Position numbers and translations under genes: made by a program. Of a stretch of DNA of 64,000 nt, positions 43,851 through 58,769 are shown in pieces. The notes under the pieces were generated by a model. That model ran no database searches, was not told the origin of the DNA, and saw nothing but the letters and a program-made list of their open reading frames with translations. Source of the stretch: Thermotomaculum hydrothermale. GTDB lineage: Bacteria; Acidobacteriota; Holophagae; Thermotomaculales; Thermotomaculaceae. The stretch is taken from positions 558,001-622,000 of the forward strand of contig NZ_AP017470.1 of the NCBI RefSeq assembly GCF_016592575.1. Direction: 5' to 3'. Each line of letters opens with the position of its first letter. Within the stretch, counting starts at the first letter, position 1.

Positions 43851-44110
43851 GGATGTTGGATTATGAATTTTAGATTATGGATTATAAATTATGGATTTTA
43901 GATTATGGATTCTGAATGCTGGATTGAGGAAGGGATTTTTTAAATAAAAGGATTTTTACCTCAATCCATAATCTATCATTCAAAATTCAAAATCTTTTAA
44001 AAAAGGATTTTTACCTCAATCCATAATCTATCATTCAACATTCAAAATCTTTTAAAAAAGGATTTTTACCTCAATCCAACATTCAACATTCAACATCTTT
44101 TAATAAAAAA
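43851..44110. repeat. Inverted/tandem AT-rich repeat block (family copy B)
   Basis: The left part (43851-43930) contains two imperfect copies of a word set around GATTATGAATTTTAGATTATGG. The right part holds three direct units of 55 bases starting at 43951, 44006 and 44061, each beginning GATTTTTACCTCAATCC. The left GGATTGAGG (43921-43929) is the complement of each right CCTCAATCC, so the whole block can fold. The third unit is degenerate. No open frame of note runs through it. Confidence 0.85.
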
Positions 44111-46643: not shown

Positions 46644-46696
46644 AAGTAAATTATTCGGCAATCTAACATTATTTGTGTCAGTAAGAAAACACTTTT

Positions 46697-46740
46697 AATT
46701 TAAAAGAACCCCTTCCTCAATCCAGCATTCATAATCCATT
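46697..46740. repeat. Partial AT-rich palindromic repeat flanking IS copy 1 (family copy C)
   Basis: CCTTCCTCAATCC followed by CATTCATAATCC is the right arm of the repeat family; the segment ends where IS copy 1 begins. The last part (46729-46739) pairs with the putative guide of the IS RNA. Confidence 0.65.
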
Positions 46741-46794
46741 TATAAACAAAGTCAAGTGGGGAAATAATTTTTTTGTTTCACCTCCTTTCTTGAA

Positions 46795-47000
46795 TTCAGG
46801 TTAAAGGTTATATATCTATCGGTTCACCTTTGCTTTTTAGCATTATCAGGGATTCTTCATTCATTTATCCGAGGTCATTGCCTCACTTTGCTTTCCATAA
46901 GCCGGTTCCTAAACAAAATTTAGTGCTTATATGCACATGAATTCTGACAGGGTGTCCCGGCTTAAATGGAATCGCCTGATTGAAAGGCGAACCGCTCCCT
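46795..47000 (-). ncRNA. Putative bridge RNA (seekRNA) of IS copy 1
   Basis: The mirror of the structure described for copy 2. The basal stem and loop occupy 46893-46971. The guide at 46937-46947 pairs with the flank at 46729-46739 with nine Watson-Crick and two G-T wobble pairs, and the guide at 46912-46922 is complementary to one strand of the other flank at 48252-48262 over 11 of 11 bases. RNA ends are a guess. Confidence 0.72.
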
Positions 47001-47003
47001 GCT

Positions 47004-48122
47004 TTAAGTTGTTATCAATGGTTTCTCACATTTGTTTTCTCCCGTTACAAGCATTGGGTTATACGGCCTTTTATGTATAAGTACCCCGTAGCATATTGCC
47101 GCTATTTTTCTTGATAGTGCCACTCTTGCTTTTTTCCAGCCTTTTCTTCTTTTTATGTTTTCATACCATTTTTTTAGCGGTATGGAGTTACAACTTTTTG
47201 ATCTTAAAACAGCTATTGCCACCTGTGAGAGGTATCCCCTGAGCATTCCGTTTCCCTGTTTGGTTATTCCCTGATTGCCTATTGTTTTGCCTCCGCTTTC
47301 TCTTATTTTAGGGCATTGACCGAAGTAGGATATGAGTTTGCGTACGTTTTTAAATCTTTCTATGTTTTTTCCTACCCTTGAGATAAATGCGGCAGAAGTT
47401 ATTTTCCCCATTCCGGGGACGGTTAATAGCAGATTGTACATTTCTTTAAAGTCGGCATCTTTGTTTATTTGAGAGTGTATTAATTGTTCCGTTTGTTCTA
47501 TTTGCTTTTCAAGTAGTTTGAATTGTTCAAACATGTGGGATATTTCAAAGTGGAGTATAGGTTGTGTTTCAGATGATATGCTTTTTAGAACAGATTCAAT
47601 CTTTTTAGCTTTATTGAGTGTTCTTAAAGGTATTTTTATTTCTTTTTCCCTTAATCTTTGCCTTATTCTGTTTATTAGCCTTGTTCTGCTTTTTACAAGG
47701 TCAGCACGGTGGGATATGAGTTTGCGTAAACTATGTTCTTTTTCCGACGGGATATATACAGGTTCTGGAAGGATTTCTTTCCATAAGCTTATTGCAAGCC
47801 GTTTTGCATCTTCTTTGTCTGTTTTTTTCATTGACTTTGAGATGTAGGCGTTTTTTAAGGTGTTTACCACATATACAGATATTCCTATGGCTTTGAGTAT
47901 GTTGCAGTATTGAAAGGTTAATGAACTGATTTCAATTGCCGAATAGATTTCGTTTTCTTCAATTAGGCTTTCAAAAAAGGTAATAAATGTTTGCTCTTCA
48001 GTGTCAATTTCTTTGCTTTTAACCTTTGTTCCCTGCTCGTTTATAATGTAGATGTAACTTTTTTTAGTGTGCAGGTCAATTCCGCAGTATAATTTCGGTT
48101 TTTTTGAGGTACAATGTTTCAT
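47004..48122 (-). CDS. IS110-family transposase (DEDD), copy 1
   Basis: A recombinase that excises and inserts the element with the help of a bridge RNA. The 372-residue protein has an N-terminal RuvC-like domain with D16 (YCGIDLH), E64 (SAIEISS), D102 and D105 (TDKEDAKRLA). A coiled central part follows, then the C-terminal Transposase_20 domain, with LLLTVPGMGKITSAAFISRVG and the catalytic serine S276 in PKIRESGGKTIGNQGITKQGN. All residues expected for activity are present. RBS AAAGGAGG lies eight bases before the ATG. It is identical to copy 2. Confidence 0.95.
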   Translation of the reverse strand: MKHCTSKKPKLYCGIDLHTKKSYIYIINEQGTKVKSKEIDTEEQTFITFFESLIEENEIYSAIEISSLTFQYCNILKAIGISVYVVNTLKNAYISKSMKKTDKEDAKRLAISLWKEILPEPVYIPSEKEHSLRKLISHRADLVKSRTRLINRIRQRLREKEIKIPLRTLNKAKKIESVLKSISSETQPILHFEISHMFEQFKLLEKQIEQTEQLIHSQINKDADFKEMYNLLLTVPGMGKITSAAFISRVGKNIERFKNVRKLISYFGQCPKIRESGGKTIGNQGITKQGNGMLRGYLSQVAIAVLRSKSCNSIPLKKWYENIKRRKGWKKARVALSRKIAAICYGVLIHKRPYNPMLVTGENKCEKPLITT

Positions 48123-48152
48123 GTCAAGCCTCCTTTCTGTAAGGGTTTCTTA

Positions 48153-48227
48153 GGGCCTATTTTATCAAAAGTGAGGCACAGACCTCGTGAAAGAAATAGT
48201 GAGGCATAGACCTCGAAGAATAGGCCC
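48153..48227 (-). other. Structured 5' region of IS copy 1 (two 17-base hairpin motifs)
   Basis: The mirror of 50035-50109 in copy 2: an outer stem GGGCCTATT/AATAGGCCC enclosing two copies of a CGAGGTC-N2-TGCCTCAC motif. See the copy 2 entry. Confidence 0.7.
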
Positions 48228-48249
48228 CGGGGGCTTGACTTTGTTTATA

Positions 48250-48320
48250 GCAACAAAATTTAAAATCTAAAATCTAAAATTCATAATCCAACATCCAGAA
48301 TTTAAAATTAACTAAATTGT
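48250..48320. repeat. AT-rich repeat flanking IS copy 1 (family copy D)
   Basis: GCAACAAAATTTAAAATCT directly after the IS, then ATCTAAAATTCATAATCC and CATCCAG-type words of the repeat family. The first 19 bases recur, inverted, beside IS copy 2 (49993-50012 region). No gene is seen between the IS and the stop of the DUF1703 gene. Confidence 0.65.
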
Positions 48321-48353
48321 GTCAACTATATCAGGATAAAATACCTAAAACCT

Positions 48354-49901
48354 TTAAATCTTCTCCCAACTGTACGAAGTTATATTTCTCTCTTCCTTGC
48401 TGAAACTTATGCCTATAAGATAGATTTCATTAGCTTCATTTTTGTGTTTTTCAAAGTATTTCTTCTCTTTTATCTGTTCAAGGGGATTTTTGTTGTCCTT
48501 CTCTTCCTCTATTACCTTGAATTCAAAGATATAAACCTTGTCTTCTATTTTTATGGTTAAGTCTATTCTTCCCCTGCTTGTTACATCTTCTGCTATCGGT
48601 TGTACCCCAAGTGAGTGAAAGTATGTGTATATTACGCTTGCATAGTATCCTTCGTAAGAGGCTATCTCGTTCTTCGTAAAGTTTGTGTATGAGATTGATG
48701 AAAAGAGTGTTTTTAAACCAGAGATTATTTTATCAACATTCCCCTCAACAAGGCCTTGATAAACTATGTTTAGCGTTCTTGTATAGGATGGCTGGTTTAT
48801 TCCTGATAAAAACCTTAAGATTCTCTCGTTCAGGGAGATTTTTACCTCTAAATTCGGATAGCTTAATTTGTAAATTTGCTTTATTCCAAGCATTTTTGTG
48901 CCTGTAATTGTAAGATAACCTGTCTGCCATAAAAGTGATTCAATCTCCATTGTGTATACATCAAAACTGCTTAATAATTCGTCTGATGCTTCCACAGTGT
49001 CAAGGTTTGGGATATAGTATTTTTCCTTTTTTAATAGCTTCATTAAGAATGTCGGTGTACCTGTTTCAAACCAATAGGGGCGGAATTGAAAACCTTTTGA
49101 GATAAAGAGAAGTATATCAAAGGGATTATATACCTTTTCTCCAAGCCAGGAATAGCCGTTGTACCAGAGTTTTACCTGTTCTCTGTCAACATTTTTCAGG
49201 TATTCGGAAAAGTATCTTTCTAACTCTTCATCTGTGTAACCACAAAGTGTTGAGTATCGGGGATCAAGGGTTATATCTTCAAGATTGTTGAGTTTGCTAA
49301 ATAGATTTACCTTGCTGAATTTGGTTACACCTGTAAGAAAAACGAACTTCAGGTATTCATCCAATCCCTTTAGCACTCCATAAAAGTCTGCAAGTGAGTC
49401 TCTAATCTTTTCAGCAACCTCTGGCTTTGTAATGTTATCTAAAATAGGCTTATCGTACTCATCTATTAAAATTACCACCCTCTCTCTTTGCGTCTCATAC
49501 AAATTAAGCACCATTTCCCTTAATGCAAGCCCCGGCTCATCCTTGGATATGGCTAAACCATACCTCTTTGCATGCTCTTCAAGTAATGAAAAGATTACCT
49601 TGTATAGTTTTTGTGTGTTATCAATCTCACCGGTACTAAAATCTATCCTTATTACAGGATATCTCTTATCCCAATTCCACTTATCGTGAATGTATAAGCC
49701 TTCAAATATCTCCTTGTTCCCCTCAAAAATATTCTTCAATGTGTCAACTGTTAATGTTTTGCCAAACCTTCTTGGACGAGAGAGAAAGTAATAACTTCCC
49801 CCCTCAATCAATTCAAGAATTTTATCTGTTTTATCAACATAAACATAATTGCCTTTAATTATCTTTTCCAGACTATTCAATCCAATCGGAAGCTTTTTCA
49901 T
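48354..49901 (-). CDS. AAA-ATPase-like / PD-(D/E)XK nuclease-like protein (DUF1703)
   Basis: This family joins an N-terminal AAA-ATPase-like domain to a C-terminal nuclease-like domain; its biological role is unknown and it is often found in many copies per genome. I start at ATG 49901 (MKKLPIGLNSLEK), eight bases after AAGGA. Walker A is YFLSRPRRFGKTLTV and Walker B VVILIDEYDKPIL. A leucine- and aromatic-rich middle follows (FDILLFISKG). The nuclease-like motif GRIDLTIKIEDKVYIFEFKV shows the D and E-x-K positions, so the fold's catalytic residues appear intact. 515 residues. It lies alone between two inverted IS copies, suggesting it was carried or trapped by them. Confidence 0.87.
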   Translation of the reverse strand: MKKLPIGLNSLEKIIKGNYVYVDKTDKILELIEGGSYYFLSRPRRFGKTLTVDTLKNIFEGNKEIFEGLYIHDKWNWDKRYPVIRIDFSTGEIDNTQKLYKVIFSLLEEHAKRYGLAISKDEPGLALREMVLNLYETQRERVVILIDEYDKPILDNITKPEVAEKIRDSLADFYGVLKGLDEYLKFVFLTGVTKFSKVNLFSKLNNLEDITLDPRYSTLCGYTDEELERYFSEYLKNVDREQVKLWYNGYSWLGEKVYNPFDILLFISKGFQFRPYWFETGTPTFLMKLLKKEKYYIPNLDTVEASDELLSSFDVYTMEIESLLWQTGYLTITGTKMLGIKQIYKLSYPNLEVKISLNERILRFLSGINQPSYTRTLNIVYQGLVEGNVDKIISGLKTLFSSISYTNFTKNEIASYEGYYASVIYTYFHSLGVQPIAEDVTSRGRIDLTIKIEDKVYIFEFKVIEEEKDNKNPLEQIKEKKYFEKHKNEANEIYLIGISFSKEERNITSYSWEKI

Positions 49902-49934
49902 AGCAAAATCCTTAAAAATTCTTTTATTCAATTA

Positions 49935-50012
49935 TACCATAATTCATAATTATTGAGTTTGAGGTTTAAAATGTCTTTTCCTACTTTTTAAAAAGATTTT
50001 AAATTTTGTTGC
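49935..50012. repeat. AT-rich repeat flanking IS copy 2 (family copy E)
   Basis: CATAATTCATAATTATTGAG and a later AGATTTTAAATTTTGTTGC, which abuts the IS. The last 19 bases are the inverted counterpart of the flank of copy 1. The 11 bases 50000-50010 (TAAATTTTGTT) are identical to the 3' guide of the IS RNA. Confidence 0.65.
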
Positions 50013-50034
50013 TATAAACAAAGTCAAGCCCCCG

Positions 50035-50109
50035 GGGCCTATTCTTCGAGGTCTATGCCTCACTATTTCTTTCACGAGGTCTGTGCCTCACTTTTGATAA
50101 AATAGGCCC
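50035..50109 (+). other. Structured 5' region of IS copy 2 (two 17-base hairpin motifs)
   Basis: GGGCCTATT (50035-50043) is complementary to AATAGGCCC (50101-50109), giving a nine-pair outer stem. Inside lie CGAGGTCTATGCCTCAC (50047-50063) and CGAGGTCTGTGCCTCAC (50075-50091), direct repeats with one difference, each able to form a small hairpin. A third copy, inverted with two differences, lies at 51376-51392 at the other end of the IS. It sits in the leader of the transposase gene, so it may control its expression or bind the transposase. Confidence 0.7.
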
Positions 50110-50139
50110 TAAGAAACCCTTACAGAAAGGAGGCTTGAC

Positions 50140-51258
50140 ATGAAACATTGTACCTCAAAAAAACCGAAATTATACTGCGGAATTGACCTGCACACTAAAA
50201 AAAGTTACATCTACATTATAAACGAGCAGGGAACAAAGGTTAAAAGCAAAGAAATTGACACTGAAGAGCAAACATTTATTACCTTTTTTGAAAGCCTAAT
50301 TGAAGAAAACGAAATCTATTCGGCAATTGAAATCAGTTCATTAACCTTTCAATACTGCAACATACTCAAAGCCATAGGAATATCTGTATATGTGGTAAAC
50401 ACCTTAAAAAACGCCTACATCTCAAAGTCAATGAAAAAAACAGACAAAGAAGATGCAAAACGGCTTGCAATAAGCTTATGGAAAGAAATCCTTCCAGAAC
50501 CTGTATATATCCCGTCGGAAAAAGAACATAGTTTACGCAAACTCATATCCCACCGTGCTGACCTTGTAAAAAGCAGAACAAGGCTAATAAACAGAATAAG
50601 GCAAAGATTAAGGGAAAAAGAAATAAAAATACCTTTAAGAACACTCAATAAAGCTAAAAAGATTGAATCTGTTCTAAAAAGCATATCATCTGAAACACAA
50701 CCTATACTCCACTTTGAAATATCCCACATGTTTGAACAATTCAAACTACTTGAAAAGCAAATAGAACAAACGGAACAATTAATACACTCTCAAATAAACA
50801 AAGATGCCGACTTTAAAGAAATGTACAATCTGCTATTAACCGTCCCCGGAATGGGGAAAATAACTTCTGCCGCATTTATCTCAAGGGTAGGAAAAAACAT
50901 AGAAAGATTTAAAAACGTACGCAAACTCATATCCTACTTCGGTCAATGCCCTAAAATAAGAGAAAGCGGAGGCAAAACAATAGGCAATCAGGGAATAACC
51001 AAACAGGGAAACGGAATGCTCAGGGGATACCTCTCACAGGTGGCAATAGCTGTTTTAAGATCAAAAAGTTGTAACTCCATACCGCTAAAAAAATGGTATG
51101 AAAACATAAAAAGAAGAAAAGGCTGGAAAAAAGCAAGAGTGGCACTATCAAGAAAAATAGCGGCAATATGCTACGGGGTACTTATACATAAAAGGCCGTA
51201 TAACCCAATGCTTGTAACGGGAGAAAACAAATGTGAGAAACCATTGATAACAACTTAA
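50140..51258 (+). CDS. IS110-family transposase (DEDD), copy 2
   Basis: Identical in all 372 residues to copy 1, with D16, E64, D102, D105 and S276 intact. The ATG is preceded by AAAGGAGG. The identity suggests one copy derives from the other recently. The 3' non-coding end, starting nine bases after the last codon, carries the putative bridge RNA. The antisense frame at 50415-50744 is only a shadow. Confidence 0.95.
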   Translation: MKHCTSKKPKLYCGIDLHTKKSYIYIINEQGTKVKSKEIDTEEQTFITFFESLIEENEIYSAIEISSLTFQYCNILKAIGISVYVVNTLKNAYISKSMKKTDKEDAKRLAISLWKEILPEPVYIPSEKEHSLRKLISHRADLVKSRTRLINRIRQRLREKEIKIPLRTLNKAKKIESVLKSISSETQPILHFEISHMFEQFKLLEKQIEQTEQLIHSQINKDADFKEMYNLLLTVPGMGKITSAAFISRVGKNIERFKNVRKLISYFGQCPKIRESGGKTIGNQGITKQGNGMLRGYLSQVAIAVLRSKSCNSIPLKKWYENIKRRKGWKKARVALSRKIAAICYGVLIHKRPYNPMLVTGENKCEKPLITT

Positions 51259-51261
51259 AGC

Positions 51262-51467
51262 AGGGAGCGGTTCGCCTTTCAATCAGGCGATTCCATTTAA
51301 GCCGGGACACCCTGTCAGAATTCATGTGCATATAAGCACTAAATTTTGTTTAGGAACCGGCTTATGGAAAGCAAAGTGAGGCAATGACCTCGGATAAATG
51401 AATGAAGAATCCCTGATAATGCTAAAAAGCAAAGGTGAACCGATAGATATATAACCTTTAACCTGAA
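51262..51467 (+). ncRNA. Putative bridge RNA (seekRNA) of IS copy 2
   Basis: Structure read by eye. A first hairpin is TCGCCT/AGGCGA (51272-51290). A second has a basal stem TTCCAT+AAGCCGG (51291-51305, two-base bulge) with CCGGCTT+ATGGAA (51357-51369). Its internal loop holds TCAGAATTCAT (51315-51325) on the 5' side and TAAATTTTGTT (51340-51350) on the 3' side, separated exactly by an apical hairpin GTGC-ATATAA-GCAC (51326-51339). The first stretch is the reverse complement of the right flank (51523-51533), 11 of 11; the second is identical to the left flank (50000-50010), 11 of 11. This is the two-guide target loop of IS110/IS1111 bridge RNAs. The donor loop is not identified; AAAGGT/ACCTTT (51431-51459) is a candidate stem. 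RNA ends are uncertain. Confidence 0.78.
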
Positions 51468-51521
51468 TTCAAGAAAGGAGGTGAAACAAAAAAATTATTT
51501 CCCCACTTGACTTTGTTTATA

Positions 51522-51602
51522 AATGAATTCTGAATTCTTGATTGAGGAAAAACTTTAATTTAAAAAATCCCTTCCTCAATTCAACATTCAAAATCTATAA
51601 TT
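51522..51602. repeat. AT-rich palindromic repeat flanking IS copy 2 (family copy F)
   Basis: GATTGAGGA (51540-51548) and TTCCTCAAT (51572-51580) form the core, with ATGAATTCTGAATTC to the left and CATTCAAAATCTATAATTC to the right. The first 11 bases after position 51522 pair with the IS RNA guide. The rest of the gap to ubiX (to 51703) holds no gene; a TAAAAT box at 51687-51692 lies only 12 bases from the ubiX start. Confidence 0.7.
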
Positions 51603-56493: not shown

Positions 56494-56944
56494 CAAACTC
56501 ACCAAAGAGATTAAAGAACTTGAGTATGAGTTGACAGTAACTTTGCCTAAAGAAATTGCAAAGGCAGCTGCACAGGGGGATTTATCAGAAAACGCAGAAT
56601 ACGAAGCGGCTCTTGAAAAGCAGAGGCTTTTACAGACAAAGTTGATGAATTTAAAAAAGAGGAGGGCTGAGATTGCCCAGATAGATGTTTCAAGGCTTCC
56701 TAAGGACAGGGTAAGCTATGGGACAACAGTTGTTCTCTATGACCTTGACAAGGACGAAGAGATTACATACACCCTTGTAATGCCTGAGGAAACAGAGGAA
56801 GGAAGCGACAAGATTTCGATTACCTCTCCAATAGGTAAAGCGTTGGTTGGAAAGAGAGAGGGAGACGAGGTTACCGTCAGGGTGCCATCAGGGGAGAGAA
56901 ACTTTGAAATAGTGGAGATTCAAACCCTGCACGATAAACAATGA
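56474..56944 (+). CDS. greA: Transcription elongation factor GreA
   Basis: GreA rescues backtracked RNA polymerase by stimulating transcript cleavage. The 156-residue protein has the N-terminal coiled coil with the conserved tip DLSENAEYEAA (acidic residues reaching the active centre) and the C-terminal FKBP-like domain (ITSPIGKALVGKREGDEVTVRVPSG). RBS GGAGGGG. The ATGA overlap links it to the methyltransferase gene. Confidence 0.95.
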   Translation: MTKEILDKLTKEIKELEYELTVTLPKEIAKAAAQGDLSENAEYEAALEKQRLLQTKLMNLKKRRAEIAQIDVSRLPKDRVSYGTTVVLYDLDKDEEITYTLVMPEETEEGSDKISITSPIGKALVGKREGDEVTVRVPSGERNFEIVEIQTLHDKQ

Positions 56945-57930
56945 AAGATTTTTTAACTGCTTTAAAAGAAAATTTTTTAATTGCAGACGGAGCATTTGGC
57001 ACATACCTTAATCAGAAGGGGAGGCCTGCAAATATTTGTCGAAGCGAGGAAAATCTAAAAAATCCAGAGCTTGTAATTCAAATACATAAAGAGTATATTG
57101 AAGCAGGTGCAAAGATAATAGAGACAAATACCTTTGACGGAAATATACTTAAACTTTCTCAATTTGAACTTGAAGATAGATTCGAGCTTTTAAACAAGCT
57201 TGCTGTTCAGAATGCAAAAAAAGCGGCAAAGGGTTATGATGTTTATGTTGCAGGCTCAATTGGGCCAACAAATGCTCTTTTAAAACCTTATGGAAATTTA
57301 ACAGAAGAAGATTTTAAAGACATTTTTTCATCTCAAGCAAAAATTTTAATAGAGGAAGGGGTGGATTTGCTAATCCTTGAAACCTTTTCTTCCCTACTTG
57401 AAATTGAAAATGCGGTAAAGGGAATAAGAAAGATTGATAGTTCAATTCCTATTGTGGCAGAAATAACAATACTTGAAGATGGATTAACTAAATTTGGTGA
57501 CAGGCCGGATACTTGCTTTGAAACATTGCTTAATGCAGGTGCAAATGTTGTTGGCATAAACTGTACCCTTGGCCCCGCTGAGCTTTTTAATCACTATTTG
57601 CCATATTTCAATAAATTTAAAGACACACTTTTAAGTGCAATGCCCAATTCTGGTTATCCTGTTACAGTTGGAGATAGGGTTGTTTACCCTGTGTCAGAAG
57701 ACTATTTCAAAGAGTATGGATTGTTATTCCTTGAAAATGGGGTAAAACTTGTTGGTGGCTGTTGCGGAACAACTCCATCTCACATAAAGAAGCTTGCTGA
57801 TACGGTGAAAGAGGCTGATATTAACAGAAAAAATCCTCAATATCTTTTCTTGAGACTGCTTTTGCAGCCGAAGAAGACATTGATGAAGGCCTTTTTGATG
57901 ATTCCCTTCCTGAAGTATTTAAAAAATTAG
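56941..57930 (+). CDS. Homocysteine S-methyltransferase domain (5' part of a frameshifted bifunctional gene)
   Basis: This is the N-terminal half of a bifunctional homocysteine S-methyltransferase/methylenetetrahydrofolate reductase. It contains DGAFGTYLNQKG, GINCTLGPAELFNHYLPY and the zinc motif VGGCCGTTPSHIKKLAD, the cysteines being the homocysteine-activating Zn ligands. About the last 33 residues (after INRK) are out of frame: the run of six A at 57828-57833 separates this frame from one that continues into the reductase. An A AAA AAT heptamer is exactly in the phase used for -1 frameshifting. It could be a sequencing indel, a true disruption or a programmed event. Confidence 0.88.
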   Translation: MKDFLTALKENFLIADGAFGTYLNQKGRPANICRSEENLKNPELVIQIHKEYIEAGAKIIETNTFDGNILKLSQFELEDRFELLNKLAVQNAKKAAKGYDVYVAGSIGPTNALLKPYGNLTEEDFKDIFSSQAKILIEEGVDLLILETFSSLLEIENAVKGIRKIDSSIPIVAEITILEDGLTKFGDRPDTCFETLLNAGANVVGINCTLGPAELFNHYLPYFNKFKDTLLSAMPNSGYPVTVGDRVVYPVSEDYFKEYGLLFLENGVKLVGGCCGTTPSHIKKLADTVKEADINRKNPQYLFLRLLLQPKKTLMKAFLMIPFLKYLKN

Positions 57931-58769
57931 GCAAAGAATTTGTTATAAGTGTTGAGGCAAATCCACCTAAAAGCCCATCACCTGAAAGGCAATTAAAGAA
58001 AATTAAGCATTTAAAAGAGTTAGGTGTTGATGCAGTAAACATTGCAGAAAACCCGCTTGCAAGGGTTAGAATGAGCGCAATGGTCTATTCCTTTTACATA
58101 AAAACTATTTTAGGCCTTGAACCTATTTTGCATGTAACATGCAGAGATAGAAATTTAATAGGCTTGCAGTCAGACCTTTTAGGCGCCTATGCTTTGGGGG
58201 TGAGGGGAATACTTGCTTTAACTGGAGACCCAACATCTGTTGGTGAATTTCCCGAAGCAACCGGTGTTTTTGATATTAATTCTGTTGGTATTGTTGAGAT
58301 GGTCTCAAGAATGAACAAAGGCTTTGATTTTGGAATGAATGAGATTAAGGGAAGAACAAATTTGTTCCCGGGAGTAGCTTTCAATCCCCTTGCATATGAT
58401 AGAGATAAAGAGTTGAAAAAACTTGAGCAAAAAATTGAGGCAGGGGCAAAATTTCTTCAAACCCAGCCTGTTTATTCAGAAGATGTGCTTGAATACCTTG
58501 CAGAAATCAGGGAAAAATTTTCTATCCCCATTTTAGTTGGAATACTGCCTTTAAAAAGCTATGCACATGCAAGGTTTTTAAATAATGAATTTCCAGGGAT
58601 TAATATTCCTCAGGATATACTAAAATCCCTTGAAAATTCAGGGAAAAACTTTGAAAAAGGGATTGAGATAGCGAGAGAAATTTTAATAAAAGCAAAGCAA
58701 TATGTTGACGGTGCTTACTTTATGCCACCATTTAACAGATTTGACATAATTGAAGAGATTTTAAAATAA
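57825..58769 (+). CDS. Methylenetetrahydrofolate reductase domain (3' part of the same gene)
   Basis: The reductase frame is open from 57825, directly after an in-frame stop at 57822-57824, and contains the family N-terminus KEFVISVEANPPKSPS and VDAVNIAENPLARVRMSAM before the first internal ATG at 58071. Further motifs are ILHVTCRDRNLIGLQSDLLGAYALG (FAD region) and LALTGDPTSVG. A start at 58071 would drop about 80 residues and lacks an RBS, so this is best read as the end of one bifunctional protein of about 609 residues. The pair supplies methyl groups from folate to homocysteine, with cobalamin likely needed elsewhere. Confidence 0.85.
   Translation, partial: QKKSSISFLETAFAAEEDIDEGLFDDSLPEVFKKLGKEFVISVEANPPKSPSPERQLKKIKHLKELGVDAVNIAENPLARVRMSAMVYSFYIKTILGLEPILHVTCRDRNLIGLQSDLLGAYALGVRGILALTGDPTSVGEFPEATGVFDINSVGIVEMVSRMNKGFDFGMNEIKGRTNLFPGVAFNPLAYDRDKELKKLEQKIEAGAKFLQTQPVYSEDVLEYLAEIREKFSIPILVGILPLKSYAHARFLNNEFPGINIPQDILKSLENSGKNFEKGIEIAREILIKAKQYVDGAYFMPPFNRFDIIEEILK

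Follow-up and report, generated by a model that had tools for sequence, protein, structure and literature searches.

A probable run-length miscount divides a PRK08645-type methyltransferase/methylenetetrahydrofolate reductase gene in the Thermotomaculum hydrothermale assembly

A bifunctional gene recorded in two frames

The window (the whole stretch of DNA analysed, 64,000 nucleotides long, G000:C1:558001-622000) belongs to a genome assembled as a single contig of 2,317,141 bases, with a completeness score of 97.52%. Two overlapping reading frames on its forward strand (Table 1) encode, respectively, a homocysteine S-methyltransferase domain (PF02574, S-methyl_trans; Pfam E-value 1.6e-67) and a methylenetetrahydrofolate reductase (MTHFR) domain (PF02219, MTHFR; Pfam E-value 2.4e-36). 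When compared with the NCBIfam profile NF006396 (PRK08645), which has 611 positions, the methyltransferase half matched positions 1-291 with 322.7 bits and the reductase half positions 313-600 with 351.5 bits. Together, the halves match the profile almost end to end. These matches indicate that the two frames are the halves of one bifunctional enzyme, PRK08645, of which both the N-terminal homocysteine S-methyltransferase domain and the C-terminal MTHFR domain are present. The difference from the known family is that the gene is recorded here in two frames, each of which, by itself, falls below the profile cut-off of 453 bits. A single open frame for both domains is not found in the window as recorded; one is found in the metagenome-assembled genome Acidobacteria bacterium S012_49 (locus L032, WFPG01000205.1; genome G297) and, up to the end of the contig, in a genome of the same genus (locus L002; genome G205).

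Table 1. Features of the divided gene, and places at which a single-base shift was detected in the genome
Feature	Position	Strand	Remarks
Homocysteine S-methyltransferase half	56941..57930	+	329 aa as read; family match, residues 1-295
MTHFR half	57825..58769	+	Without a canonical start before 58071
Heptamer A AAA AAT, in phase	57828..57834	+	Six-A run at 57828-57833; seven A, in frame, in the relative L032
Possible stem-loop after the heptamer	57837..57883	+	Not kept in L032
Second in-phase A AAA AAT	57921..57927	+	Abuts the TAG stop at 57928-57930; missed by the earlier note
Shift 1, methyltransferase/MTHFR gene	57828-57833	+	One A fewer than the frame needs
Shift 2, purD	about G000:C1:403497-403502 (L126:5497-5502)	-	G6 here, G5 in G205
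Shift 3, metal-dependent hydrolase (PRK00685-like)	about G000:C1:651920-651925 (L110:9920-9925)		A run apparently one longer (inferred)

Both frames were confirmed with the limits given in an earlier note on this DNA, which had also stated that they overlap only at 57825-57930. The reductase frame opens directly after a TAA at 57822-57824, while the methyltransferase frame ends at the TAG at 57928-57930; its tail, PQYLFLRLLLQPKK, is translated only by ribosomes that have not shifted at 57828. Before 58071 the reductase frame contains no ATG, GTG or TTG, and that position already lies inside the domain, so that production of a whole reductase from the sequence as recorded needs either a change of frame within 57825-57930 or a rare start codon.

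A search of the genome with PF02219 showed the MTHFR domain of this gene to be the only one found. The idea that this copy is a spare one, with a second MTHFR encoded elsewhere, was rejected, since the same search returned no other match in the genome. A second gene with a methyltransferase domain, MetH-like, was observed in a 789-aa frame at G000:C1:804678-807014. Of the 1182 positions of the metH profile it matches 4-586 and 653-861, the rest being unmatched, and the second of these pieces (653-861) crosses one TGA. Judging from known pathways, the MetH-like gene would need the product of an MTHFR.

To judge from codon comparisons, the reductase half is as constrained as the methyltransferase half, only the linker being looser. 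Differences between the window and L032 at codon positions 1, 2 and 3 numbered 29, 14 and 160 in codons 1-297, 12, 5 and 21 in the linker (codons 298-335), and 36, 9 and 129 in codons 336-610. With L002 as the outgroup, the amino-acid changes assigned to this lineage and to that of L032 numbered 17 and 9 for the first half and 4 and 1 for the linker; for the portion of the reductase present in L002 the figures were 6 and 3. The comparison with L032 and L002 thus gave no sign of an old loss, in agreement with the view taken in the earlier note that neither half shows decay, and an old pseudogene was rejected since both halves evolve alike against L032.

Elsewhere in the window, stretches near 46694-46864 and 51399-51536 hit identical places in G297 contigs, one on each strand, as did those near 48146-48262 and 50000-50116. 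The region 46690-51540 therefore holds two nested inverted pairs, arranged around an ORF (48354-49931) parts of which match many G205 contigs; this region looks like a mobile element. A short stretch at 43851-44049, for which both relatives gave matches in many contigs and on either strand, is perhaps a dispersed intergenic repeat.

The slippery heptamer and its surroundings

The codons AGA AAA AAT place the heptamer A AAA AAT at 57828 in phase for a -1 slip, exactly as the earlier note had it. A further in-phase copy of this heptamer, at 57057, was overlooked in that note, as was the one abutting the stop codon. A list of slippery-type heptamers gave 16 matches in the interval 56941-57940, 12 of them in phase. 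As a background, the 55 window ORFs kept as genes (at least 150 aa; 57,735 bases in all) were scanned for the same kind of motif. In-phase A AAA AAN occurred 84 times, 16 of them as A AAA AAT, and matches to A-run heptamers, in and out of phase, amounted to 218. The heptamer is therefore ordinary in sequence rich in A and T runs. In addition, the shortening of a run from A7 to A6 before a T turns AGA AAA AAA into AGA AAA AAT by itself, so the exact phase is no independent sign of programming, and the phase argument put forward in the earlier note is circular.

The 80 nt that follow the heptamer (57835-57914) fold at -19.1 kcal/mol at 37 C (z -2.19), 5 of 200 shuffled sequences being as good, and the stem ranks second among those at the 84 places in the window where A AAA AAN is in phase. 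Folding as strong was found in 5.3% of 917 coding stretches of 80 nt and in 4 of 88 stretches of the same gene. A higher temperature weakened the stem, to -9.8 (55 C) and -7.6 (60 C). At the matching place in L032 it was absent (z -0.09), so that the conservation of a downstream stem, which the earlier note had proposed to look for in orthologues, was not borne out. The sequence of G205 folds at -24.4 there, though without a heptamer; since the folds of L032 and G205 are not the same as the stem here, a conserved stem was rejected. The stretch following the second heptamer (57921) was unremarkable (z 0.19). A GAGG at 57811-57814, 13 nt upstream of the heptamer, is, by resemblance, a candidate upstream stimulator. 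The downstream stem is mildly unusual; it is the only positive sign of recoding and the best evidence against a miscount of the A run.

The junction in relatives and single-base shifts elsewhere in the genome

Locus L032, whose identity to this genome is 85% at the protein level over the reductase and 79% at the DNA level, keeps the upstream neighbours and the length of the gene, and has a single 610-aa frame over the join, with no split. At the run it reads GAA AGA AAA AAA TCA (A7), where the window reads AAC AGA AAA AAT CCT. In L002 (73% DNA identity) the frame is open over the join up to the contig end; the sequence there is CAA AAT AAG, the A run itself not being kept.

A search of 297 genomes of the phylum provided matches in 286 and, among the matches listed, L002 included, no internal stop was present in any from another genome; a few of those listed were partial. 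A first motif test detected the fused frame in 21 of 28 loci. When it was repeated with other motifs the fused frame was detected in 27 of 35, and the junction could be located in 26 loci, a count that excludes a spurious row for L013 (in L033 and L034 the frame was found and the junction was not located). An in-phase A6/T6 heptamer at the junction was present in only one of these 26 loci, L032, where it takes the form of an in-frame A AAA AAA in an unsplit frame. Conservation of the heptamer among orthologues, the other comparison proposed in the earlier note, was thus not observed. Seven of the eight loci missed by the repeated test (L004-L007, L011, L013 and L020, the match of the last spanning query positions 1-515) are stop-free open frames of 615-710 aa, and in the eighth, L037, the frame over the join is 399 aa long, narrowly short of the cut-off of 400. 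These misses are due to the filter, not to broken frames.

Similar shifts were then sought in a larger part of the genome. Stop-to-stop frames of at least 100 residues from G205 and G297 were compared with 464 kb of this genome, made up of the window plus 20 stretches of 20 kb. Five places were flagged in the 150,037 bases covered, and three genes contained true shifts, at or near base runs (Table 1). Two flags were dropped, one (L123/L056) corresponding to a tRNA cluster and the other (L118/L154) being a stretch antisense to the neighbouring gene, before the start Met. The gene purD is single-copy here and has a frame of 258 residues, compared with 428 and 420 in the relatives, both of which are open; both of its halves match TIGR00877. 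The relative of the hydrolase in G205 (L138) has an open frame. The shifts differ in sign, since purD and the hydrolase gene have one base extra while the methyltransferase/MTHFR gene is one short. Within the window alone, the break in the methyltransferase/MTHFR gene is the only one in 46,112 covered bases. In the converse test the frames of this genome were compared with the relatives' loci, some of which overlap; 153,383 bases were covered and no true shift was detected; the flags raised (L118/L154 and L125/L134) were dropped because the frames are antisense to two adjacent genes. Three shifts on one side against none on the other is a pattern suggestive of an assembly fault, with numbers too small to prove it: if the rates were equal, the chance of finding all three in this genome would be one in eight.

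Explanations for the split

The split is most likely (a probability of about 0.7) an assembly error, a homopolymer miscount within an ordinary, functional PRK08645-type gene. The A run at the inter-domain linker would have been recorded one base short, and the cell would make one fused protein of ~609 residues from one open frame; the shift would belong to the recorded sequence only, the DNA of the cell being free of it. Two observations are consistent with this: in L032 the run at this position is of the length that keeps the frame, and similar shifts occur elsewhere in the assembly (three genes in the 150,037 bases, this one included). Since the relatives are intact, and one of them has A7 in the same run, a miscount is most likely, rather than special decoding. 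The earlier note had left the choice between a lost A and programmed frameshifting; the former is better supported, by the A7 of L032 and by the two further shifted genes, while the latter fails the comparisons made, in that the split is shared by neither relative and the stem is not kept in L032. The case is like the singletons of Antonov et al. 2013 (PMC3711429), in which a frame is broken in one genome and intact in its relatives, and no difference from them was found in what was tested; according to the part of that paper available, singleton frame breaks validated by BLASTp are expected to stem from errors of sequencing and not from genuine indels. The sequences of the relatives are compatible with a miscount and with a real, recent indel alike. 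The sequencing platform used for Thermotomaculum hydrothermale was not found in the portions of the PMC literature available, and among the matches listed there for a frameshift in a bifunctional methyltransferase/MTHFR no related paper appeared (one dealt with switchgrass, and was unrelated by its title).

A real and recent deletion of a single base from the A run of the sequenced strain, by slipped-strand mispairing, is the next likeliest reading; it is unlikely, although it has several points in its favour. A run of seven A such as that of L032 is a plausible hotspot for such mispairing, the absence of decay is as expected for a recent event, and further single-base shifts are present in the genome. 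Following such a deletion the reductase might be lost, or might be made at a low level through unprogrammed slippage, or else the run might switch between six and seven A. The rescue of a real indel with no evolved signal would have a precedent in E. coli, where a frameshift in rpoB is suppressed intrinsically, a case that, in the available part of the report, differs in involving a +1-nt mutation and a heptanucleotide with a slippery CCC codon (PMC7022156). However, a deletion here would cost the cell the sole MTHFR found, and the same argument applied to purD would leave it with no intact copy of that gene either; two broken core biosynthetic genes in a 97.52%-complete genome were judged less likely than miscounts.

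Programmed -1 frameshifting that uses the A AAA AAT at 57828, or the one at 57921, with the downstream stem as stimulator, and that yields both a short methyltransferase and a fused enzyme, is improbable. As in -1 frameshifting of the dnaX or IS type, an in-phase A-rich heptamer lies here before a stretch able to fold; it is within the overlap, with a second copy before the stop, its stem stands second of 84 in rank, and the GAGG is upstream of it. In the part of Sharma et al. available (PMC4066793), a strong IS3 pseudoknot brought 61 of 64 heptamers above background in E. coli, and A_AA.A_AA.U was not among the three that did not shift. The same source (PMC4066793) places A_AA.A_AA.G among the most efficient E. 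coli motifs and reports better shifting with homogeneous ZZN codons than with heterogeneous ones, AAU being of the latter kind, which counts against the heptamer present here. The difference from the dnaX and IS systems is that neither split nor stem is conserved in L032 and that G205 has no heptamer, both relatives being open without any shift. The weakness of the stem at 55 C, the frequency of comparable folds in coding sequence, this gene included, and the lack of anything notable after the second heptamer also argue against programming, and a -1 shift cannot explain the purD break, which is of opposite sign.

It is quite improbable that the six A are real and that the only MTHFR is made solely by stem-helped -1 slippage on A AAA AAT, that is, by a newly arisen, lineage-specific corrective frameshift in a core metabolic gene, from which the short methyltransferase would come as well. 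Transcriptional slippage on the A6, supplying a share of in-frame mRNA, is very improbable: the run at the join is homopolymeric, but six A is short compared with the sites in Antonov et al., which, in the part of that paper available, are often runs of at least 8 nucleotides or two shorter runs together (PMC3711429). Moreover, the 218 A-run heptamer matches in the window ORFs were accompanied by no other break in the 46,112 covered bases. Scarcely credible is the reading of the locus as two separate genes, with the reductase starting internally at 58071 or at a rare start codon; separate genes for the homocysteine methyltransferase and MTHFR activities exist in other bacteria, but here 58071 is residue 83 of a frame whose family match runs from residue 37, the segment ISVEANPPK, upstream of 58071, lines up with the beginning of an MTHFR chain of solved structure, and only rare codons (ATA at 57840 and 57945; ATT at 57879, 58002 and 58041) precede 58071. 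An internal start was rejected, there being no canonical start before 58071, itself inside the domain.

If the six A were real, the gene would offer a rare example of a core enzyme that depends wholly on frameshifting. With a miscount of the run, the preferred reading, the proteins predicted from the genome would include neither MTHFR nor PurD in intact form, and false gaps in the synthesis of folate, methionine and purines could appear in pathway reconstructions.
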